DNA of 62,246 bases from Muribaculaceae bacterium (GTDB taxonomy: Bacteria; Bacteroidota; Bacteroidia; Bacteroidales; G3-4614). Numbering within the stretch: position 1 is the stretch's first letter; each line of letters begins with the position of its first letter. The notes beneath the pieces are model-generated. The model was not told the DNA's origin. It worked only from the letters and a program-made list of their open reading frames with translations, and searched no databases. The stretch covers positions 1 through 62,246 of the forward strand of contig JAFYRT010000056.1 in the NCBI GenBank assembly GCA_017546805.1. Direction: 5' to 3'. The position numbers were made by a program, and so were the translations under genes. This document shows positions 44,726-57,647 of this stretch, piece after piece.

Positions 44726-46861
44726 TTATTGAGCTATTGTCTTAAATGTTTTAAAAATGCCCTCTCCTACTATTTTTATAATGTATACTCCTTTTGAACA
44801 TGAAGATATATTCAAAATTATTTCATCTCCGGAGATTATATTCGTATAGTTGTTTGAATAGAGTATTTTGCCTGTAATATCATGTACTGATATTGTTGCA
44901 TTTTTTATCTCCTTTGCAAAGAGTAGATTTATTGAACCTCTGCTTATATTGTTTTTTATTAATACGAGTTTGTCTGATATTGGTTCTACTCCGTCAATGC
45001 TATTTAATATCAGGCACTCTTTAATGCCTTTCCATGCGTCAATTTTACCGCATCCCCATGTGTTTGATTGTTGTGATATGTCTCCTGTGAATTCGTCAGT
45101 AATTGCTGTTTTTGCAATTATCTCTTTTATATCTTCGGGTGATAGTGTTGGACGGGCTTGTAGCCATTGTGCTATAATTCCTGTAACTACTGGTGCTGCC
45201 ATTGATGTTCCGCTCATTGCTCCATAGTAATAGGTTTCGTTGTCTTTACTTACGGTTGTGCCAAAGTCTAAATAGGGCTTATAGTAACTGCTTTGTGATA
45301 TGTTTGGCGAATTTGAAAATGACGAAATTATACCCTCACCAGGAGCTGTGACATTTGGCTTTTGTCTTCCGTCTGTTGTTGGACCTTTGCTCGAAATGGA
45401 ACTTATATCCCCTACTACACCATCAAAAATGTTCTTTGTTACATACGAACCTACTGTTATTATTCTTTTGCCTGTTCCTCCAACTTCGTTAACGCTGTAA
45501 TCGCTATCGCCCGAAGTGTATGACTCTACATTGTAACTGTCAAAGGTGTCCATGTAACTCCATGCATGAATGGTATTGTTTTTAGTCCCTCCTATACTCA
45601 TTTCTATGGCATAGTTATTGGATGCCTGAGTCAATGATTTTATAATAAGTATATGCGGACGTTTTGTGTTTGGTACTATTTCGCTATATATCTCTACAGT
45701 TCCAACTATTCCGTTGTTCAGAGAGTATAGAGTACTATTGCAGAATTGTGTCGATACGAGTGATGATTGTGATATGTAAGTGTTTGTTTGCTTATTATAT
45801 AACGATAAAGTTAAGTTCATATGTGTGTTTTCGCTACCATAAATCTCAATATAGTCAATGTTTTGTGATGTGTAATTTTTTAGTTTATATGAGCATGGCA
45901 TAAAGGTTTTAAGTTTATCGTTGTTCGAAGCTAATGTTTTTGATACATGCGAGATTTTATCTCCTCCATTACCTGCAGCTCCAACCAAGATGCAACCATT
46001 GTCTTGTAAATTGTCTGCTATGATGTCAAAATCGGAAGTTCCATCGCGAGGGCCAATAAAGCCACCAATACTCATATTTATAACTACAGGCTTACCTTCG
46101 GTTGTCGCATAATTTTTTATGTATGCAATGGCGTCCGAAATGCTTGAAGTATAACCATCGTACGATACAAATACAATATCAGATTCTGTTGCTACTCCAT
46201 AAAAATCACATCCTTTATAACCTCCTACAGCAATACCCGCAACATGAATGGCGTGAGTTCCGTTATCTGTGTCGTATTTAATAGTCTCTATCTCTGATTG
46301 AGTGGTATATTCGCTTCCGTAATTAAATCCTTCGGGTGGTGTGCCTTGTGTGTCTGTTTGGTTCCAATAACGTTTAATTCTTAAGTTGCCATTCGTATCG
46401 TAAAAATTTAAATGATCGAGTTGAATGCCTTGGTCTATTATTCCAACAATAACGCCTTTGCCTGTATATGCTGATGGTAATTCATATGCGTTATGTGCAT
46501 AATCGATGGCACTACATTTGCGTACCTCATCAAGTGTTGATTGTGTGGGAGTGCCCATTTCAATTCTCTCAATACCGTCAATATTTGCAATGGTCTCGAT
46601 TAATGATTGAGGTATTCTTATTATTGCTATATCATCAATAATGCTATTTGTGTTTAGCCCCAAATTTTCAATCTCGCTCAATGCTGAGATTTTAGAGAAA
46701 TGGACATAACATGTATACTGCTCATAATCATCTCTATATTCTTTTTGTATAGAACGAGTGAGTGATGATAACTTGCTTTGGGTATATAGAGATATCTCTC
46801 CTGAATTTGCATTGAAGAGAGAATAGAATAAAATTATAAACAGAATAACACCGTATCTCAT
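44726..46861 (-). CDS. Secreted subtilisin-like serine protease (S8) with T9SS-type tail
   Basis: The catalytic triad is visible: Asp in VIVGIIDQGIQLDH (about residue 143 from this start), His in THAIHVAGIA, and Ser in GAMSGTSMAAPVV (near 550). Between His and Ser lies a long insertion typical of S8A enzymes with extra domains. The last ~75 residues (ISVHDITGKILYSNN ... SSCSKGVYIIKIVGEG) match the C-terminal sorting domain of type IX secretion cargo. MRYGVILFIILFYSLFNANS serves as signal peptide. The ATG at 46861 was chosen because an earlier one (46888) would overlap the thioesterase gene by 26 bases. The thioesterase gene is immediately upstream. Confidence 0.9.
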   Translation of the reverse strand: MRYGVILFIILFYSLFNANSGEISLYTQSKLSSLTRSIQKEYRDDYEQYTCYVHFSKISALSEIENLGLNTNSIIDDIAIIRIPQSLIETIANIDGIERIEMGTPTQSTLDEVRKCSAIDYAHNAYELPSAYTGKGVIVGIIDQGIQLDHLNFYDTNGNLRIKRYWNQTDTQGTPPEGFNYGSEYTTQSEIETIKYDTDNGTHAIHVAGIAVGGYKGCDFYGVATESDIVFVSYDGYTSSISDAIAYIKNYATTEGKPVVINMSIGGFIGPRDGTSDFDIIADNLQDNGCILVGAAGNGGDKISHVSKTLASNNDKLKTFMPCSYKLKNYTSQNIDYIEIYGSENTHMNLTLSLYNKQTNTYISQSSLVSTQFCNSTLYSLNNGIVGTVEIYSEIVPNTKRPHILIIKSLTQASNNYAIEMSIGGTKNNTIHAWSYMDTFDSYNVESYTSGDSDYSVNEVGGTGKRIITVGSYVTKNIFDGVVGDISSISSKGPTTDGRQKPNVTAPGEGIISSFSNSPNISQSSYYKPYLDFGTTVSKDNETYYYGAMSGTSMAAPVVTGIIAQWLQARPTLSPEDIKEIIAKTAITDEFTGDISQQSNTWGCGKIDAWKGIKECLILNSIDGVEPISDKLVLIKNNISRGSINLLFAKEIKNATISVHDITGKILYSNNYTNIISGDEIILNISSCSKGVYIIKIVGEGIFKTFKTIAQ

Positions 46862-46862
46862 A

Positions 46863-47357
46863 TTATAGAGTTGCAATAATCTCTTCAAGAGTTATATCTT
46901 CTCCCTCTTGAGGAATATACTCAACAAGAGCATCTTTAGGTTGAAATGTAAAATATAGGCATTGAGCTTTTGAGCAAACTTCTCCAGCTGAGTTATATAG
47001 TTCTGCTTCAATTGTAACCAAGTTCCTTCTTCTCTCAATCTCTCTTGCTCTAATTATCAAGTAGCTATCTTTTGTAGATACAGGTTTTAAATATCGAGTC
47101 TCCATTTTTGATGTTACTCCTGTTGCATTGCAATTACGCATAACAACCCAAGCACATATTTCATCAAGCATCACAGCTTGAATTCCACCATGTAAAGTGT
47201 CAATCCATCCTTGGAATTGTTGTTCGGGTTTCCAAACAGAAACAATATCGTCTCCATCTGAATAGAAATTCATTCTAACTCCTGCCTTATTTTCGGGAGC
47301 GCAACCAAAACAAAAATATCCGGGAAGGTTAAGCCATGGATTGGTTAATTTTTTCAT
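46863..47357 (-). CDS. PaaI-type hotdog thioesterase
   Basis: This 164-residue hotdog-fold protein has the family pattern CFGCAPENKAGVRMNFY and WIDTLHGGIQAVMLDEICAW, containing the HGG and the catalytic-acid position. It probably hydrolyses an acyl-CoA; the acyl group is unknown. It sits directly before the subtilase gene and 27 bases after yjbQ, so the run MBL-yjbQ-thioesterase-subtilase may be one transcript, although the products look functionally unlike. Confidence 0.85.
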   Translation of the reverse strand: MKKLTNPWLNLPGYFCFGCAPENKAGVRMNFYSDGDDIVSVWKPEQQFQGWIDTLHGGIQAVMLDEICAWVVMRNCNATGVTSKMETRYLKPVSTKDSYLIIRAREIERRRNLVTIEAELYNSAGEVCSKAQCLYFTFQPKDALVEYIPQEGEDITLEEIIATL

Positions 47358-48633: not shown

Positions 48634-48676
48634 AAATAAAAAGAACCCCAAAGTTTTTTACAAACTTTGAGGTTCT
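48634..48676 (-). terminator. Terminator of the PEGA/LPP20 locus
   Basis: AGAACC-CAAAGTTT pairs with AAACTTTG-GGTTCT, with one C/A mismatch, followed on the minus strand by T-rich sequence, 33 bases after the PEGA gene stop. Confidence 0.85.
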
Positions 48677-48708: not shown

Positions 48709-50955
48709 TTATTTAGAAAACGGAAAGTTTACTCCTAATGACAATCCTACAGCCCATCTTCCGGTTATTCTACTGAAGTTTGAGTTGTAATAGTTCAAAT
48801 ATTTATTGTAGATATATTGTTGGTCGAACAACGAATCTATATCGTACATACATGATACAGAGAAGTCAAGATAACTGTAAGCAATACCTACTTCTCCTCC
48901 TATTGATTGGTTATAATTGTTTACTAAACTTTTTTCAGATTTAAACCCTGTATTAAAATTCATAGTATAGCGTGGACCCATATATAATGCCCATTTTTTA
49001 TTAGCTTTTTCGCCTCCTGCCAAACGTAGTCGAAGAGATGATATAATGGGTACTCTATCAATCATCTCGGGAGATTTATTTGAACTTGATGAGTCATAAT
49101 TTGGAACTACTAAATCTAAGTTTTGATCAGAATTGAAGTTGACATCAATTCCCAATCCGATGCAAAAAGTTAACCATGTTAATCGCTCTTGTCCTATTTT
49201 AAACATTACATTAGCACCAAACCATGAATTGTTTCCAAATATACAATTTAGATTAATGGCTGCGGATAATAGCTCTTTTATAGAGTGCTTTTTTGTCAGA
49301 TATATATTTTCTACAATGTCTATTCCCGGAACAACTTCTATATCTTTTGTTTTACTTTTATATCCGTTTTTTGATAATGTAACCTCATATATGCCACTTG
49401 GAGCATTGTAATCATAGGGCGTTTCTCCAACTTTTTTTCCACTGATATAGACATTTGCTAGTACATTACTATAAATTTTAGCATTGCCGTATATTGTATT
49501 AAGTTTTATGTTTAGATTTGTTTTCTGTCCTGCTGTTACTTGTGCAATCTCTTTTGTGTCAACATAACCATTGGCTTTAAGTGTTACATCGTATATGCCC
49601 GACTCTAAGTTGCAAGTATATGGAGCTGTACCAACATATTTGTTGTTAATATATACTTCTGCACCACTTACAGAAGATGTTATTACGAGTTCTCCAGAGT
49701 TTTGCATAGCTATATTTTCTTGGCTAACTTTACCCTCTTCAACGGAGATTGTTTTAGTTACAGTTGCATACCCATCTCTTTTTATTGTAATTTCTCTATT
49801 TCCAATAAGAATGTTTTTAAATATTCCAGGAGTAACTCCTATGTTTTCTCCATCTACAAAAATCTCAGCTTTACTTGGGTTGGTTTGAATGTTGAGTATT
49901 CCGTATCGTGGTGTAGGTGCTTCGAGAGTTTTATTGATATTCACACCTGCTTTTACACTTATTGTGGTTTTTGATGAGTGGTGCGACTCTTTTCGAGCCT
50001 CTACAACATAGTCTCCTGTGTTTAGGTTTCCACTCCAACTTCCAACACCTTTTTTCTCATTGTTAACATAAATTTCGGCATTGTTAGGTGCAAATATTGT
50101 TACAGAAGAGAAATTAGGTTGCAGTGTCTCTATTATTTCTTGAGTTGTTCCGCTGCTCAAAACTTTGTGAGTTACAGTTTTTGTGCTATACATAGGTAAA
50201 CGGAATTCGAATTTGTGATTTCCTGCAATAACTTTTTTTGTTGTCAATGGTGTAGTTCCAGCATCAACATCATCAATGTAAACTCTTGCTCCGCTTGGAT
50301 TACTGTTTATTTGCAATATAGAATAATCAGGCTCAAGTTTTACATTTTTTTCAGTTACGGCATTGCTGCTTATCGTTAAGTTTCCTATCTCTTTCTTGTA
50401 CATATAGGAACTAATCTCATACTGATATGTTCCGTATTGAAGAAATGTTGAAATTCCTCCTTCTGCATCTGTTTGTAATGTTCTACCGTCAATATAAACC
50501 TCAGCATTTTTAGGCTCAATTGTAAGAGATAGATAGTTGCCTCCTAAATCCTGTTCTACATGCGATATAACTTTACCTGTACTTAATTTCATTAAATAGG
50601 TTTTGCCCGATTGTATTACAATTGGGTAGTAGTAGTCGCGTAAAATACCTAATGATGCGTGTTTTATGGTTAATTTTTTTGATCCCTCAGGAATATAGAG
50701 CCATATCTCTCCTGTCTTGTATTCAGGGTCTCCAACCAAACCTATTGAGCCCGGCTCAAAAACAAAGCCAGTATAAGAGGTTTCGATTTTAACTAGTGCT
50801 GCATCTTTACGGGTGTTGGGGTCGTATCGTTTTGTCCCTTGAATTGTAGCTGTTAAATCGTTTGTCAAAAGCGAAAAGCTCTCGACACTCATATTCTCAG
50901 CTTGTACCCCAAATATTACAGTAAATAGAATGATTATTAAATTTAACTTTTTCAT
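48709..50955 (-). CDS. Six-PEGA-repeat exported protein with barrel-like C-terminal domain
   Basis: This 748-residue protein has a signal peptide (1-19, ending GVQAEN). After an N-terminal region of about 140 residues come six PEGA-type repeats, each with a variant of 'A-VYI-G---G-TP' and a closing '-GYxxxT': for example SGARVYIDDVDAGTTPLTTK, KAEIFVDGENIGVTPG and GAEVYINNKYVGTAPY. The last ~170 residues alternate hydrophobic and polar residues and end WAVGLSLGVNFPFSK, like a small outer-membrane barrel. PEGA domains are thought to bind surface structures. It is the last gene of the six-gene envelope locus. Confidence 0.82.
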   Translation of the reverse strand: MKKLNLIIILFTVIFGVQAENMSVESFSLLTNDLTATIQGTKRYDPNTRKDAALVKIETSYTGFVFEPGSIGLVGDPEYKTGEIWLYIPEGSKKLTIKHASLGILRDYYYPIVIQSGKTYLMKLSTGKVISHVEQDLGGNYLSLTIEPKNAEVYIDGRTLQTDAEGGISTFLQYGTYQYEISSYMYKKEIGNLTISSNAVTEKNVKLEPDYSILQINSNPSGARVYIDDVDAGTTPLTTKKVIAGNHKFEFRLPMYSTKTVTHKVLSSGTTQEIIETLQPNFSSVTIFAPNNAEIYVNNEKKGVGSWSGNLNTGDYVVEARKESHHSSKTTISVKAGVNINKTLEAPTPRYGILNIQTNPSKAEIFVDGENIGVTPGIFKNILIGNREITIKRDGYATVTKTISVEEGKVSQENIAMQNSGELVITSSVSGAEVYINNKYVGTAPYTCNLESGIYDVTLKANGYVDTKEIAQVTAGQKTNLNIKLNTIYGNAKIYSNVLANVYISGKKVGETPYDYNAPSGIYEVTLSKNGYKSKTKDIEVVPGIDIVENIYLTKKHSIKELLSAAINLNCIFGNNSWFGANVMFKIGQERLTWLTFCIGLGIDVNFNSDQNLDLVVPNYDSSSSNKSPEMIDRVPIISSLRLRLAGGEKANKKWALYMGPRYTMNFNTGFKSEKSLVNNYNQSIGGEVGIAYSYLDFSVSCMYDIDSLFDQQYIYNKYLNYYNSNFSRITGRWAVGLSLGVNFPFSK

Positions 50956-50983
50956 TTTAGCTATATTCCCTATATGTTTTTTG

Positions 50984-51997
50984 CTATTGTAGATTTATCT
51001 TTTCTTTATGAGCCTTAGTTTCAACCTTCAAATTATTGTCCGATGATATACCTACGATTGAGGGATCTATTTTGATTATATGCATAGAATTAAATCTTGT
51101 AATTTCTCTCATTTGATTTTTGTAGTTTTCAACAATTGTAGATACATGAACCTGTTCAGAGCTGTCTTGATAGAAAATTTGCATTAATTGAGATGTTATA
51201 TACGGATACCAAAAGCCTTTGTTAAGTTTTGTGTAAGTAATATGCTCTTTCTCTGCAATTTCCCCTCTTTTTTGATACGTGCAAAAAATTTTAGAGTGAT
51301 CAACCTCTATAGAATTTATTGATGTCTTGGGTTCTATATTATTGTTAGAACGATATATATTAGTTGAATATCTTTCTAAACCAGGTAAGCCGAATAGCTC
51401 TATGTCAAGTTTATAAAAGCCTTCTTCGTTTGTATGGTCTGCATTATTGTAAGAGGTGTATTTTGTATAGCTTTCTATTTGACAAACAATTTTATTTTTT
51501 CCATTTGATTTGTTCTCTTTTACTTCAACCAAACAGAAATATTCTCCAAATTTTGATTTATACTCTTTTACAACATTATAGTTAAAGAGTTTTTTTGTTC
51601 CTCCCTTTTTTAACTCCTCTATAACGGTTTTATTTTCATTGTCTTCAGAAAATGTATACATCTCTGTTAATGAAAAAACATTTATTCCATTTTTTAATAA
51701 ATGTGCTAAAACGGCATTTGCGATAGCCTGATTGCGAGATTGCAAAGTGTCGTTTGAAGGAATGGATACTCCTAATGTTAGATTCTTATGATTGTGTGCG
51801 TTGAAAATCCATTCGGGAAGCGTATCTGGTCCCTGAATACGCCACATCATATCTTCTGCAAGTTGCTGGTTATCTGTTTCGATAAATCCAACAGCGTCAA
51901 ATTGATTTTTTAATTGTTGTGATAAACTTTGAGCTTGAATTTGAGATGTATATCCCAAACACACTGTCAAGAATAATACAACTAATTGTTTTAACAT
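50984..51997 (-). CDS. Exported LPP20-like protein
   Basis: This 337-residue protein has a signal peptide (1-22, ending IQAQS). Near residues 60-110 it shows LPEWIFNAHNHKNLTLGVSI followed by a helix NQAIANAVLAHLLKNGINV. This is the 'P-W ... GxS ... A--A---A' pattern of LPP20-type proteins; the assignment is tentative. The rest is not recognised. It lies 28 bases before the PEGA gene and 125 bases after the small LPP20 lipoprotein gene. Confidence 0.65.
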   Translation of the reverse strand: MLKQLVVLFLTVCLGYTSQIQAQSLSQQLKNQFDAVGFIETDNQQLAEDMMWRIQGPDTLPEWIFNAHNHKNLTLGVSIPSNDTLQSRNQAIANAVLAHLLKNGINVFSLTEMYTFSEDNENKTVIEELKKGGTKKLFNYNVVKEYKSKFGEYFCLVEVKENKSNGKNKIVCQIESYTKYTSYNNADHTNEEGFYKLDIELFGLPGLERYSTNIYRSNNNIEPKTSINSIEVDHSKIFCTYQKRGEIAEKEHITYTKLNKGFWYPYITSQLMQIFYQDSSEQVHVSTIVENYKNQMREITRFNSMHIIKIDPSIVGISSDNNLKVETKAHKEKINLQ

Positions 51998-52032
51998 ATA
52001 TGTTTAGTTTTGTGTTTTATATTTTATATTTT

Positions 52033-52064
52033 TATAGGGACTGTGCCAAAGCACAGCCCCATAT
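52033..52064. other. Intergenic hairpin inside the envelope locus
   Basis: GGG-a-CTGTGC pairs with GCACAG-c-CCC around loop CAAA. It lacks a T-run on the minus strand, so it may be an mRNA-stabilising or processing hairpin rather than a full terminator. Confidence 0.5.
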
Positions 52065-52122
52065 AGTTAAGTAAGAGATTAATATATTTATATTTAAATC
52101 TCATACTTTAAAATTGACATTA

Positions 52123-52686
52123 TTATTCAGCCAATTTAGCCATTTCTTCTTCAAATGTTTTTTTGAATTTCTCGTAATCGTAGTCAATTTTCAATTTTGA
52201 GTCATTTGACAAGCTGCTGTTCAAAGCTGAAAGAACGTCAGCAGTAGCTAATTCAACGCATACATAGCATTTGTATTTAGCCTCTCCCATTTTTTGGTAT
52301 TTCTCGCAAATAATGTGAGAACCGCTAATTTTTTGGCTTACTACTGTGCGAGCCAACTCCTCAAAGCGTTGTACTGTTGCTGGAGTCTCTCCCTCTACAT
52401 AGTTTTTAGCGTAGTTGTCGCTAACTGCTTTAATAGTAGCGTTGATGCTTGCAGCCAACTCTGTACGAGCAGAAGTTGTTGCTTGTTTGCGAGCAACGTC
52501 CTCGTTTCCAGCAACTGCGTTAGCTGTTGCGCGGAATGTTGTTGCATCTGTTCTGTAACCGGGTCCTGAGCAAGGAACTTCATAAGTTGAATCAGAAGTA
52601 GTTGTTGCAGTTGGTTGAGTTGAGCTACAACTTGCAAATAATGCTACTGAAGCAATAACTGATAACATTAAAAATATTTTTTTCAT
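52123..52686 (-). CDS. LPP20-family lipoprotein
   Basis: This 187-residue lipoprotein has the lipobox LFASC at residues 16-20. The mature part shows the LPP20 features CSGPGYRTDATTFRATANA, then a helix DVARKQATTSARTELAASIN, with a strand pair ending KYKCYVCVELATADVLSAL. LPP20-type proteins are SHS2-like domains found near outer-membrane machineries. Within the locus it is flanked by the transglutaminase-like gene (56 bases upstream) and the LPP20-like 337-residue gene. Confidence 0.85.
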   Translation of the reverse strand: MKKIFLMLSVIASVALFASCSSTQPTATTTSDSTYEVPCSGPGYRTDATTFRATANAVAGNEDVARKQATTSARTELAASINATIKAVSDNYAKNYVEGETPATVQRFEELARTVVSQKISGSHIICEKYQKMGEAKYKCYVCVELATADVLSALNSSLSNDSKLKIDYDYEKFKKTFEEEMAKLAE

Positions 52687-52742
52687 AATCTCTTACCCTA
52701 AATTTTCGTGTCGGGCACAACCTTAAATAATAAAAGAAAAAA

Positions 52743-54233
52743 TTAATTTAGCATTATTACGTCTGCCGTAGAATTATCCATTCCAGGCATGGTTTTTCCT
52801 ATATTGGCATTTATATATGTTGGATCGCACACCAAATAACGAGAACCCTTTATTTGAATGTAGTCGCCCTTTATATCCTCCTCAGTGAACTCAACGGCTG
52901 TTGCAAGGTGTCCTGGATAATACAAAAGTACAACTTTTAATCCTAATAAGTCTTTTATTAGGCGAGAAAATAATATTGATCTGTCTTCGCAATCGCAATA
53001 TGGATAGTAGAGTGTCTCATCTGGGAAGAATACCCTTTCTTGTCCCCATGCTTGATTGTCTGTTTTATATTCAAATGCTGTTTGAACAAAATTCAAAAGT
53101 ATGTTTGCTGCCTCTTGTTGACTTTTCCCTGCTATACTTGCTTTAAGAGTTGGGTATAGTTTCTCTTTTGCTTCGTTGCTTAACGGAGTATTTGCATATG
53201 TTGCCCAAAGAGTTTTTGAATTACCGTTCATATATGCAGAAGGATACTCTGAATAGAATAATAATAGGTTTATGTTTGTTGTTGATGTTAACTCAGTTTG
53301 AGGATAACGTTTTGATTTTAGTACTCTCTGTTTTGTGGCTTTATATGCAAATTTGTTTATTGTAGTCATTGTCAAACGCATAGGACTCTCTTGAGGGAAC
53401 TCTCGGTTAAAGATGAACATGGAATTTACCTCATCTTTACTCAATAGATAATATTTTCTTCCTGAGATATTGTAGTATATCTGGTTACACATATCTTCAT
53501 GGGTATTTACCAAAAGATGAATCTTATTATCTGTCGTTCTTCCTAATCTTATCATAAAACCCATGTTGTTCATAAGATATGCAGAAAGCATAACCGACTC
53601 GTTTGATTGACCATATATCTTTTCAGATATCTCTATTATAAGTTTGTACAACGCCCAATCGCAAAGATTATAATCTTCTCTTATTTTAGCGCAATCAGCT
53701 ATTATGTTATCATAATCGCCTGATGATAATGTTTCCCAATAATCAGCCGCATCATTTTCCGATGCACCTGACATCTTTTTACATTTATTTATGTCAAATC
53801 TTATTTGGCACTCAATCCCATAAAATTCAATATTAATAGCCTTCTCTTGAGGTTTTGGGGTGTATTTAAATGGAACAACCGGTTTGGGTGCATCAAATTT
53901 CACTGTGGGTGTTATATTTTTTACCTTTATCTCTTTATCGAGCGGCTTAGCATATTCAAGAGTGTCGCGATATACAATAGGAGTAACAATTGGTTTTTCC
54001 TCTTTTGGCTTTTCAATTGGAGCTTGCGCCTCCTCTTTTTGCCAGGGTTTACGCATAAAATCGGCAAATTCAGCATTTATTTTTGTCTTATACGACTCAA
54101 AATCCTCAATTGCGTTTTTCTTGTAAGTATTGAAGTTACTACTTTGTTGCTTTAAGTACTCTTCATAACTTTGAGAAAATAGAAATGAAGAATTTAATAA
54201 ACTTATAGCTAAAATAATTACCAATCTTTTCAT
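52743..54233 (-). CDS. Exported transglutaminase-like cysteine-protease-fold protein
   Basis: This 496-residue protein has a signal peptide (1-20, ending LFSQS). A proline-rich linker lies at about 60-130. The C-terminal domain has the transglutaminase-like triad: Cys in YPYCDCEDRSILFSRL (near 416), His in YYPGHLATAVEF (near 447) and Asp in YLVCDPTYINA (near 475). It could cleave or crosslink an envelope protein or peptidoglycan peptide. It lies between two LPP20-type genes in the six-gene locus. Confidence 0.82.
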   Translation of the reverse strand: MKRLVIILAISLLNSSFLFSQSYEEYLKQQSSNFNTYKKNAIEDFESYKTKINAEFADFMRKPWQKEEAQAPIEKPKEEKPIVTPIVYRDTLEYAKPLDKEIKVKNITPTVKFDAPKPVVPFKYTPKPQEKAINIEFYGIECQIRFDINKCKKMSGASENDAADYWETLSSGDYDNIIADCAKIREDYNLCDWALYKLIIEISEKIYGQSNESVMLSAYLMNNMGFMIRLGRTTDNKIHLLVNTHEDMCNQIYYNISGRKYYLLSKDEVNSMFIFNREFPQESPMRLTMTTINKFAYKATKQRVLKSKRYPQTELTSTTNINLLLFYSEYPSAYMNGNSKTLWATYANTPLSNEAKEKLYPTLKASIAGKSQQEAANILLNFVQTAFEYKTDNQAWGQERVFFPDETLYYPYCDCEDRSILFSRLIKDLLGLKVVLLYYPGHLATAVEFTEEDIKGDYIQIKGSRYLVCDPTYINANIGKTMPGMDNSTADVIMLN

Positions 54234-54295
54234 ATTTATGTAAATTTATTAGATAGTGAGTTTTATTATTACCAAACTGCTCAATCTTCTTAATA

Positions 54296-56152
54296 TTAAA
54301 AATCACCTAAACCATACAATCCGAAATTAGGATCTTTTTCGGGTTGCCATGTTCTAACTTTAATAGATGGTTTTTGGGTATTGTTTAAGTCAACCATTAG
54401 GAATAGATATCCTTGGTCTCCATAGTTTGTGCTGTGATAATCTTGTTTTATCTCTATACCGTATAACTCACCGCCTGAAGCAGCTCTCATTACTCTGTTG
54501 TTACCAAAACAGATATTAACAAATTCATTGCTATTGAAACATCTTTTCAAATTGGTAATATATTGATTCTTTGTTAGTCTGTTATATATTACTATTTGAT
54601 TATTGCTGTAATTATCCAACTCTACATCTCCTGCTGCTCTTTTTGTTTTGTTTCCAATAATTATGACGGCATTATCGTCGAAAATGTCTGCAATGTAATC
54701 TATTCTTTCTAAGGCAAATGCAGTTTTGTAGTTTTCAAGGAAATTTATAACAAAGAGTCTTGATGTTTGCGGCCACTCCTCGTGCGACCATATATCATTA
54801 AGGGCTTCGTGTCCTAATCCGAAAGTGATTGATTCAATCTTTTTCTCTATATTGAATGTAAAATTGACGTCTTCTACAAATTTTCTGGTGTTATTGCTGA
54901 AAGAGAATTGCATTGGTAGGCTACGGCATATTATCCAATTGTCGGCTTGAAGATAGACTCTCTCTGTTGGTGTTAAGAGTTGTGCATTTCCATAGTTTAT
55001 CAATCTTGAAAACATATCCCATCCCTCTTCTGTAAAATGTGATTTTACCAAATCGTAATTTTTACTCTTTATGGCACTTGATATTGTTGCCACAATATCA
55101 TCATATGGCTTTTTAGCATCAATATTCAATTGATTTACTGTGGTGTATGCGTGAGATGTAGATGTGTATTGTGTTACTTTATTTACTGTTTTTGCTTGAA
55201 TGTTTGTTACATTTGTTGGTTGGTGTGATGCAACAGACGAAAGAGGTACTCTGTATCTCGACTCTCTGGCAAAGTACTCTTCTTCTCCTATAGCATTCAT
55301 CACAGTTTGCATTTCGTTGTCCACATGTACCTTCTCCCTAAAAATATATTCACACATAACATCTATGTATGATATAGGTATTTTAGGGTTGACTTCACAT
55401 GCACCTTTTCCGTTTGATGCTGAATTTATTGCGCTTGTACTCTGACCGTCAAAGTATTTGAAGTCAATACTACTTACGGGGACACCGTCGTAACGGAAAA
55501 TTAGTTCCAATAAGCCATCTGATATGTCATTTTCTGATAGAGATACCTGTAGGTTGGAGAATATGGTTCTTATCTGTTTCGGTATCCATGTAACCAACAT
55601 TACTTCTTCCTTGTCATATTCGAAAGTTATTTCTCCGGGTCGAGGTAAACTTTGTAATAGAATTAACGCCCAGTTATAGTTGCGTAATGCATTATCAATC
55701 TCTTTCCTTTTGACAGCTTCTAAAGCATCATTTACATACGATATGACTTTGTTCCTGCGCGATTCAAATACTTTGTCAATTTCTGAGCGATGAATATATC
55801 TGAATATGGTGTATTTACCTTCCTTTTCGTTGTAAAATTCTATTCTTTTTACATTATTCAATGTTGTAGCAGAATATGTTTTTATGACACTCTCGCAACT
55901 AACTACAGTTTCTGGTGTCTCTCCTGTTACAACATTTTTTGATAATTGAATGAAATCACTCTCTACAGATACTGAAATTTGAGATATTAGCTCATCGAGA
56001 GCCATGTTGTCAGCTCGTTTTTGTGATGAATGATGTCCCTCTCCCCAAATGTATGAGTGGTCACTTTTTATTTCATTTATACTTTGTGCGCTTAATGGAG
56101 TTTGTATGCCTAATAATAAAAGAATGTATGCAGCTCTAATTATATATTTCAT
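54296..56152 (-). CDS. Exported LPP20-like/NTF2-like protein
   Basis: This 618-residue protein has a signal peptide (1-22, ending LSAQS). Residues 30-130 are LPP20-like: YIWGEGHHSSQKRADNMALD, then a helix with DELISQISVSVES and the strand KYTIFRYIHRSEIDKVF. The C-terminal third (NQYITNLKRCFNSNEFVNIC, then YGDQGYLFLMVDL and KVRTWQPEKDP) looks like an NTF2-type cone fold. A charged helix lies between. It follows the OmpA-type gene by about 300 bases and precedes the transglutaminase-like gene by 62. Confidence 0.75.
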   Translation of the reverse strand: MKYIIRAAYILLLLGIQTPLSAQSINEIKSDHSYIWGEGHHSSQKRADNMALDELISQISVSVESDFIQLSKNVVTGETPETVVSCESVIKTYSATTLNNVKRIEFYNEKEGKYTIFRYIHRSEIDKVFESRRNKVISYVNDALEAVKRKEIDNALRNYNWALILLQSLPRPGEITFEYDKEEVMLVTWIPKQIRTIFSNLQVSLSENDISDGLLELIFRYDGVPVSSIDFKYFDGQSTSAINSASNGKGACEVNPKIPISYIDVMCEYIFREKVHVDNEMQTVMNAIGEEEYFARESRYRVPLSSVASHQPTNVTNIQAKTVNKVTQYTSTSHAYTTVNQLNIDAKKPYDDIVATISSAIKSKNYDLVKSHFTEEGWDMFSRLINYGNAQLLTPTERVYLQADNWIICRSLPMQFSFSNNTRKFVEDVNFTFNIEKKIESITFGLGHEALNDIWSHEEWPQTSRLFVINFLENYKTAFALERIDYIADIFDDNAVIIIGNKTKRAAGDVELDNYSNNQIVIYNRLTKNQYITNLKRCFNSNEFVNICFGNNRVMRAASGGELYGIEIKQDYHSTNYGDQGYLFLMVDLNNTQKPSIKVRTWQPEKDPNFGLYGLGDF

Positions 56153-56361
56153 ATTTATAATAATTTCTTTATCCGGTTAATATTTGTGCCTTATTTGCTG
56201 TGTCCAATAATTTTTTTAAGATTGTAACATATAGGTAGCTATAGTTACTCTATTTTATAAGATCAACTGCAAACTTAATATTTTTTTAGAAATATTTAAG
56301 CAAAAAAAAATAAATTTATGCCAATTTATTCTCTTTCTTGCATAGTATGTATATGTATGTT

Positions 56362-56396
56362 AAATCCCCAAAGCCATGGACTTTGAGGATTTTTTA
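56362..56396. terminator. Hairpin downstream of the OmpA-type gene
   Basis: AAATCC-CAAAG and CTTTG-GGATTT pair around CCATGGA with one C/A mismatch. The longer T-run is on the plus strand, so termination of the minus-strand gene may be partial. Confidence 0.5.
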
Positions 56397-56450
56397 TTGT
56401 AAACTATATGTATAACAGCTATTTATTTCTTATTATAAGATAGGTCTCTA

Positions 56451-57647
56451 TTATTTTGTTTCACAACTTTTAAATACAACTACCCTATTCCATGAATTAT
56501 TATTTGGATATGGTTGCATAGAACTTCCATTTGCAATAAGTTTAAGGCGCGATTCATCTATATTATATTCTTTTACGAGAATCTTTATGACCTTATTGGC
56601 TCGCTGCTCACTCAATTTCTTGTTATACTCATCTGTTCCTGTCTCTTTGTCTGCATAACCTGTTACTATTACATCGCATGTCGGATTTGCCTTCATCCAT
56701 TCTGCTATGTTGTAAATATTAATCATCTCTTCATCTGTTACAACACTGCTGTTTAGTGCGAATCTTACAGTAGAGGTTAACTGCGCGTCACAAGGAGACT
56801 GTTTTTCTGTTATAACTTTGGGCTTTTGGGCTAATTGCTTTTTAAGTTGTGTGTTCTCTACCTCTAAGAGTTCGTTCTTTTGGGCAAGAGTGTTATCTTG
56901 AGAGCGCATTGTGTTTATTTCGGCATTAAGAGCCTCTCTGACAAATGTCTCTCGTACAGGATTGTAAGAAGCAAATTTTTTACCTCCGAAGTTAAAAGAT
57001 ATTCCTCCTAATAGTGCTAATGTTGCTTCGGCACGTTTTGACTTTATAACCCCATTATAGTTGTCAGATAATATATTCACTTTGCCCTCAACAAACATAT
57101 CGGCATATCTGCATAAACGAACATTGAATCTCATACCTGTAGATATTCCAAAAGACAATGTTTTTCCAAATGGATTCTTAAAGGCATAGTTACTTGCAAA
57201 ACCCACATAAGGAATTACAGATATTATTCTGTATGGGTCATATCCTCCTATGGTATTTGTCATATTCCACATAAAGTCTGCAGCAAGCGATACGTTTTTG
57301 TAATGTAGAATATCGACCTCTTCAGGATATCTTAGTCTTAGAGCCCCTCCTGTTGCCGACAATCTTAATCCCCAATAGGGGTTAAACCATTTACCGAAGT
57401 CTACTGTCATCGAAAGAGAAAAGAGCGATTTGCCTTTGTGCTCGGCAAAGAGAGTCTGTACTCCTGCTCCCATTGACATAAACCAATTATCACGAGGTAA
57501 AGGTGAATAGTAGTATGTTTTGCCTTCGGGAACAAAATCAACAACTACTATCTCCTCCTCAATTTCAGGAGCTTGAGCATATACTTTACTACTAAGTAAA
57601 GAGAGAAATACTCCTGCAAAAATTAAAGTTAAGTGTTTTAGTTTCAT
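56451..57647 (-). CDS. OmpA-family outer-membrane protein
   Basis: This 398-residue protein has a signal peptide (ending VYAQAP), an eight-strand-like N-terminal barrel (about 50-220), a coiled-coil linker (ALNAEINTMRSQDNTLAQKN then ELLEVENTQLKKQLAQ) and a C-terminal OmpA peptidoglycan-binding domain. In that domain VTGYADKETGTDEYNKKLSE and QRANKV keep the Asp and Arg that hold diaminopimelate. The frame extends upstream to a TTG at 57674, but the ATG at 57647 (MKLKHLTLIF) gives a normal signal peptide. It heads the six-gene locus and would anchor it to the cell wall. It is divergent from trmD. Confidence 0.92.
   Translation of the reverse strand: MKLKHLTLIFAGVFLSLLSSKVYAQAPEIEEEIVVVDFVPEGKTYYYSPLPRDNWFMSMGAGVQTLFAEHKGKSLFSLSMTVDFGKWFNPYWGLRLSATGGALRLRYPEEVDILHYKNVSLAADFMWNMTNTIGGYDPYRIISVIPYVGFASNYAFKNPFGKTLSFGISTGMRFNVRLCRYADMFVEGKVNILSDNYNGVIKSKRAEATLALLGGISFNFGGKKFASYNPVRETFVREALNAEINTMRSQDNTLAQKNELLEVENTQLKKQLAQKPKVITEKQSPCDAQLTSTVRFALNSSVVTDEEMINIYNIAEWMKANPTCDVIVTGYADKETGTDEYNKKLSEQRANKVIKILVKEYNIDESRLKLIANGSSMQPYPNNNSWNRVVVFKSCETK

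Follow-up and report, generated by a model that had tools for sequence, protein, structure and literature searches.

A five-gene unit encoding exported LPP20-type, transglutaminase-like and PEGA-repeat proteins, patchily distributed in Bacteroidota

The window analysed here is a 62,246-nucleotide stretch of DNA (JAFYRT010000056.1), contig 69 of a 2.1-Mb Bacteroidales genome in 75 contigs. It contains six consecutive open reading frames on the minus strand, each with an N-terminal export signal, just where an earlier note made from the sequence alone had placed a six-gene envelope locus. Five of these genes, called LPPa, TG, LPPb, LPPc and PEGA (48709-56152, minus strand), constitute the unit described below; the sixth, an OmpA gene upstream of LPPa, lies outside it. 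The genes and the signals around them are as follows.

56360..56398, minus strand: hairpin downstream of OmpA
56270..56304, minus strand: Bacteroidetes-type promoter match TTTG-N23-TAAGTTTG, upstream of LPPa
54296..56152, minus strand: LPPa, 618 amino acids, with a signal peptide; marker gene of the module
52743..54233, minus strand: TG, 496 amino acids, a predicted exported transglutaminase-like cysteine enzyme
52123..52686, minus strand: LPPb, 187 amino acids, a lipoprotein (lipobox LFASC) with a probable LPP20/FlgT_N-type domain
50984..51997, minus strand: LPPc, 337 amino acids, exported; seen in only part of the modules
48709..50955, minus strand: PEGA, 748 amino acids, with an N-terminal domain, six PEGA repeats and a C-terminal tail
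48642..48676, minus strand: terminator hairpin after PEGA, with a 15-pair stem and a T tail

From upstream to downstream, the intergenic gaps measure 298 bp (OmpA-LPPa), 62 bp (LPPa-TG), 56 bp (TG-LPPb), 125 bp (LPPb-LPPc) and 28 bp (LPPc-PEGA), and 104 bp separate PEGA from the next gene. The promoter match, of the -33/-7 type, is placed between the OmpA hairpin and LPPa; matches of this kind are enriched in the window (19 versus 7.3 expected). OmpA is split from the unit by this hairpin and promoter match, and a strong terminator closes the unit at its other end. Judging by these signals, the five genes probably form a single operon with its own promoter and its own terminator. The GC content of the module (30.8-39.5%) is that of its surroundings (32-41%) and thus carries no foreign base-composition signature. 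The possibility of an anti-phage defence system was rejected because the five genes gave no match to the PADLOC defence models, in which OmpA alone resembles MotB/ZorB.

The OmpA protein (Pfam match on the window protein, E 9e-14) is an ordinary wall anchor encoded by a core gene of the genus. Orthologues that are 57-82% identical occur in seven of the eight genus genomes, the window's genome counted, whereas LPPa occurs in only two of the eight. The gene adjoins trmD in G001, G005 and G006, as it does in the window, with no module gene nearby in those three genomes. In G004, a further genome of the same genus, OmpA is followed directly by the genes that lie downstream of the module in the window (metallo-hydrolase, YjbQ-like, 46863, subtilase and 43050), with no module between. 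One end of the 102-bp gap between OmpA and the hydrolase in G004 aligns with sequence 3' of the window's OmpA, and the other end aligns with window sequence from the post-PEGA terminator onward. The sole hairpin of this gap resembles both hairpins that bracket the window module, and those two are related in sequence. This locus of G004 is a clean presence/absence site for the five-gene unit, reflecting either insertion or loss of the module. OmpA was rejected as a sixth member on its own distribution, the empty site and the related hairpin; the unit accordingly loses the "wall anchor" once assigned to it, and the proposed six-gene locus stands only for its other five genes.

Full-length LPPa, taken as any match with an E of 1e-58 or lower, is found in 30 of 393 sampled Bacteroidales genomes, spread over 25 families. 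For TG, a class was defined by profile search in which matches had to cover the enzyme part, so that matches to a beta-propeller alone were left out. TG-type proteins occur in 28 of the 30 LPPa genomes versus 60 of the 363 others (Fisher p 4e-18), and the link between LPPa and TG consequently holds even where the two genes lie apart. The PEGA gene is the commonest immediate neighbour of LPPa, lying within 8 kb of it in 21 of the 29 genomes compared, 15 of which have it no more than 500 bp away. The binomial probability of the 8-kb figure by chance is about 1e-21 if the background is assumed to be 5%, and about 1e-14 if it is 11%; both tests treat genomes as independent, with the many families limiting the effect of shared ancestry.

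LPPb, LPPc, TG, LPPa and PEGA are clustered at four loci in different families (L041, L042, L096 and L104), three of which also hold a gene for a small exported CarboxypepD_reg-like protein of 256-259 amino acids. LPPa, LPPb, LPPc and PEGA are clustered in L084, and partial module sets are present in L053, L085, L098, L101, L110 and L111. The nearest relative, G074, has LPPa, LPPb, LPPc and PEGA in the same order as the window and TG elsewhere in the genome. Outside the order, TG, LPPa and PEGA occur with a divergent LPPb in four genomes (L141-L144), and LPPa split into two genes is followed by PEGA and LPPb in L145-L147. Few further families recur across the 36 LPPa neighbourhoods; when 429 neighbouring proteins were compared all against all, no additional family stood out. 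A scan of named genomes for TG returned one relative only, in the Paludibacteraceae rumen genome of L053, and viral contigs contained no relatives of LPPa or TG. LPPa, PEGA, TG and LPPb, joined in some genomes by LPPc and the small CarboxypepD-like protein, are thus linked by position or presence across Bacteroidota, with the linkage extending into further classes of the phylum. The neighbourhood survey called for by the earlier note is in this respect borne out: five genes co-occur and cluster in unrelated genomes, and only OmpA fails to do so. In all four genomes of L141-L144, a protein of about 1,860-1,980 amino acids is encoded two genes from PEGA; the one in L141 combines FG-GAP repeats with TIG domains and also matches TcdB_toxin_midN.

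In the LPPa tree, the G004 sequence groups with family f60, apart from the window LPPa of the same genus, and the two f108 sequences fall apart, a pattern that fits either horizontal exchange or old paralogy. Together with the patchy distribution, these conflicting gene trees suggest that the module is patchily inherited, gained and lost as a unit. On this view the module probably serves as an optional adaptation of the surface or envelope rather than as a housekeeping system.

Single-sequence Pfam calls on LPPa, LPPb, LPPc and TG all fall below the Pfam cut-offs, and the domains of these proteins were assigned through their relatives. The LPP20 match of the window LPPa (E 0.011) recurs in 26 of 32 homologues for LPP20 (PF02169), with a best E of 2.5e-8, and a C-terminal NTF2-like Cds6_C match is present in 16 of the 32. 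The sole convincing solved relative by sequence is Helicobacter pylori HP1454 (E 1.5e-5). Structure models were built from two-row alignments only; the AlphaFold model of LPPa has an overall predicted local distance difference test (pLDDT) value of 50, with better values at residues 20-60, 100-130 and 340-450. Its first part matches the fold of Lpp20/HP1456 (5ok8; Z 9.7 over 99 residues, 3.8 A) and of HP1454 (4kzs; Z 8.8 over 80 residues, 24% identity), and residues 340-449 match NTF2-like proteins with a Z of about 9. The predicted layout of LPPa is a signal peptide, an LPP20 domain at the N-terminus (about 20-135) confirmed through relatives, a long helix and middle region, an NTF2-like domain at 340-449 and probably a second one at 460-605. 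The LPP20 call of the earlier note on this protein is in this way confirmed. In six loci outside the order (L145-L147 and L151-L153), adjacent genes encode the LPP20 part and the NTF2 part of LPPa separately, as a fusion/fission pair.

LPPb (single-sequence FlgT_N E 0.0077) is supported by sequence comparison as a probable LPP20-type lipoprotein. The LPP20 profile matches 4 of 14 homologues (best 0.00042), the profile alignment of LPPb with LPPa (hhalign E 1.2e-5) lies over the LPP20-type domain of LPPa, and the top PDB match is Lpp20 (5ok8, E 0.028). The residues after the lipid cysteine, SSTQP, contain no acidic surface-export signal, and on this general ground LPPb is presumed to sit at the inner leaflet. 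LPPc was considered as a third LPP20 protein, and the candidate was found unsupported: LPP20 matches the window sequence at 0.019 and one of six homologues, also at 0.019, hhalign gives a probability of 9.8%, and no PDB relative and no reliable family were found. Repeated use of the LPP20 domain, originally proposed for three proteins, therefore extends to two.

TG is a likely cysteine enzyme, either a protease or a transamidase, as predicted from a triad, Cys414-His441-Asp469, that lies in this order in the second half of the protein. Among 24 homologues, Cys414 is conserved in 22 and Asp413, Asp416, His441, Asp469 and Pro470 in all 24; the motif of TG is CDCEDRS. The single-sequence DUF553/transglutaminase call (0.014) and the best family match to Transglut_core (0.0086) are below cut-off, so that only a likeness to transglutaminase-like enzymes is claimed, and no membership. 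The best fold matches of residues 156-291 are in the transglutaminase superfamily (Z 5-6.7, in a low-confidence model with a pLDDT of about 50), and this region is without a conserved cysteine. Matches to vertebrate-type transglutaminases in the same region were read as a likeness of fold and not as homology. The two halves of TG align weakly (probability 37%), and the catalytic half is unresolved in the structure model. From sequence and model together, TG likely consists of a degenerate first domain (156-291) and an active second domain.

Some TG homologues continue into a CylK-like C-terminal beta-propeller. In L041, L042, L096, L104 and other loci, homologues of about 885 amino acids carry a C-terminal extension that matches the CylK beta-propeller (family profile E 8e-25). 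Genes for caspase-domain (C14) proteases lie between LPP20-type and TG genes or adjoin LPPa (L037, 7207-8415; L101, 7608-8447). A different TG cluster is found in L038 and L039, of the same genus, where genes for an LPPb-like lipoprotein, a DUF5683 protein and a vWA or BACON-repeat protein precede TG. Several sets of partners may exist for TG and LPPb-like proteins.

The PEGA protein of the window has six PEGA repeats (PF08308; 187 bits, E 4.5e-56, above cut-off), as the earlier note had stated. Its tail was also described there as barrel-like; a Pfam scan of this tail found no barrel. Tails in the module loci vary between barrel-looking and FGE-sulfatase, from which the tail appears exchangeable, and a barrel-like tail in the window is therefore plausible rather than observed. 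Judging by sequence, the module PEGA is a member of a paralogous family in which one front end carries swappable tails. Paralogues elsewhere in the same genome are up to 63% identical to it (428 residues, covering the first 420 or so). Those on contigs 57, 29 and 33 (L030, L031 and L033) are about 60-63% identical over the first 420 residues and have a sulfatase-modifying-factor-like C-terminus; the FGE-sulfatase tail is Pfam-confirmed for the L030 paralogue, and the same sequence motif is present in L031 and L033.

No description of a unit of this composition was found in the literature searched, which covered few subscription papers, in agreement with the earlier note; nor was there a paper on LPP20 and the PEGA domain in Bacteroidetes, and the sole paper on LPP20, transglutaminase and operon concerns Legionella. 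The closest known arrangement is in H. pylori, where HP1454 and HP1456 (Lpp20) share one operon and each interact with the flagellar-motor proteins FlgP and FapH, and deletion of hp1456 leaves motility and bacitracin resistance unaffected (PMC11756786). Like the module, this operon pairs an LPP20 lipoprotein with a larger exported protein that opens with an LPP20-like domain, and HP1454 and Lpp20 are, respectively, the best PDB sequence match and the best fold match of LPPa. In contrast to the module, neither a PEGA protein nor a transglutaminase-like enzyme comes up in the accessible part of that paper, and NTF2-like domains set LPPa apart.

A real, uncharacterised unit is supported by these results, whereas the earlier wording of one assembled "machine" is not yet earned. 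Since the same genes keep turning up side by side in scattered members of a single phylum, the five products probably form one envelope complex. The specific reading preferred here, a patchily inherited Lpp20-type cell-envelope complex with a cysteine enzyme, is held tentatively, at a little short of an even chance. The unit with its boundaries and co-inheritance, the domains and the triad are shown; complex formation, location, enzyme action and substrate are its inferred steps. LPPb would provide a lipid tether to the membrane, probably at the inner face of the outer membrane. LPPa would join LPPb via its own LPP20 domain, a pairing modelled by analogy on HP1454 and Lpp20 with their likewise shared operon, and would carry NTF2-like binding domains. 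The PEGA protein would form a repeat stalk with an exchangeable tail, and TG, with its Cys-His-Asp triad, would act on a partner or surface protein kept in place by the scaffold, cleaving or cross-linking it. The fuller version is doubtful: a previously undescribed, horizontally exchanged Bacteroidota machine in which an Lpp20-type outer-membrane scaffold positions a tandem TG, one domain dead and the other active, so that surface proteins on the PEGA stalk are cross-linked or processed.

Several points weigh against the Lpp20-type complex. Only 9 of 29 LPPa genomes have TG less than 8 kb from LPPa, the Fisher and binomial statistics ignore shared ancestry, and further PEGA paralogues are encoded elsewhere in the genome. 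In H. pylori, a two-hybrid assay showed no binding between HP1454 and HP1456 (PMC11756786). Both structure models have low overall confidence (pLDDT about 50).

An alternative is LapG-like control of surface-protein release, in which TG would act as a periplasmic cysteine protease on a surface protein, either PEGA or a large neighbouring one, with the LPP20 proteins gating or sensing the signal. LapG and similar cysteine peptidases share the superfamily fold matches and the Cys-His-Asp triad with TG, whose triad is conserved; caspase-type proteases adjoin TG and LPPb in L037 and L101, and very large secreted proteins adjoin the module in L141 and L085. LapG itself (Z 5.0) is one of many equal matches to a low-confidence model, however, and TG differs from this group in falling below the Pfam thresholds, in its CDCEDRS motif, in an extra, seemingly degenerate N-terminal domain and, in some homologues, in the CylK-like propeller. 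With no conserved substrate next to TG and no LapD-like cyclic-di-GMP receptor recognised among the recurrent neighbours, such control seems unlikely. It is unlikely, too, that the functional link is confined to LPPa, LPPb and TG and that PEGA proteins are generic surface modules settling beside many envelope genes; the paralogues elsewhere in the genome and the range of tails would fit this, but PEGA lies within 500 bp of LPPa in 15 of 29 genomes and is also close to it outside the order, and no strong full-length PEGA gene stood beside the LPPa-less TG genes examined.

A FlgP/FlgT-like ring or disk of LPP20 domains in a non-flagellar use is quite improbable. FlgP, FlgT and Lpp20 have a common SHS2-like fold (PMC12222027), which the module shares, and LPPb matches FlgT_N weakly; no flagellar gene was recognised among the module neighbours, however. 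In this family, the building of rings is associated with a beta-hairpin insert that follows the SHS2 helix (PMC12222027), a position at which the LPPa model has a helix (79-90) and no strand, with residues 63-86 at a pLDDT under 50. An Lpp20-like scaffold is favoured over a FlgP-like disk because this insert is absent from the model. A chance neighbourhood of unrelated envelope genes, to which patchy distribution and varying gene order might point, is barely tenable given the co-occurrence and adjacency statistics and the recurrence outside the order; it is largely refuted for the five genes and holds for OmpA.

In Helicobacter, Campylobacter and Vibrio, members of the LPP20 family are antigens, vesicle proteins or relatives of flagellar-disk proteins, and their role outside flagella is unclear. 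A compact, phylum-wide set in which two LPP20 proteins are coupled to a PEGA protein and a likely cysteine enzyme offers a small testable system for LPP20 complexes. The poorly annotated LPPa and TG families also gain a defined context, since LPPa is hardly ever found in a genome that lacks TG. Elsewhere in the window (44726-46888), an S8-like subtilase has a C-terminal tail that resembles a type IX secretion sorting domain.
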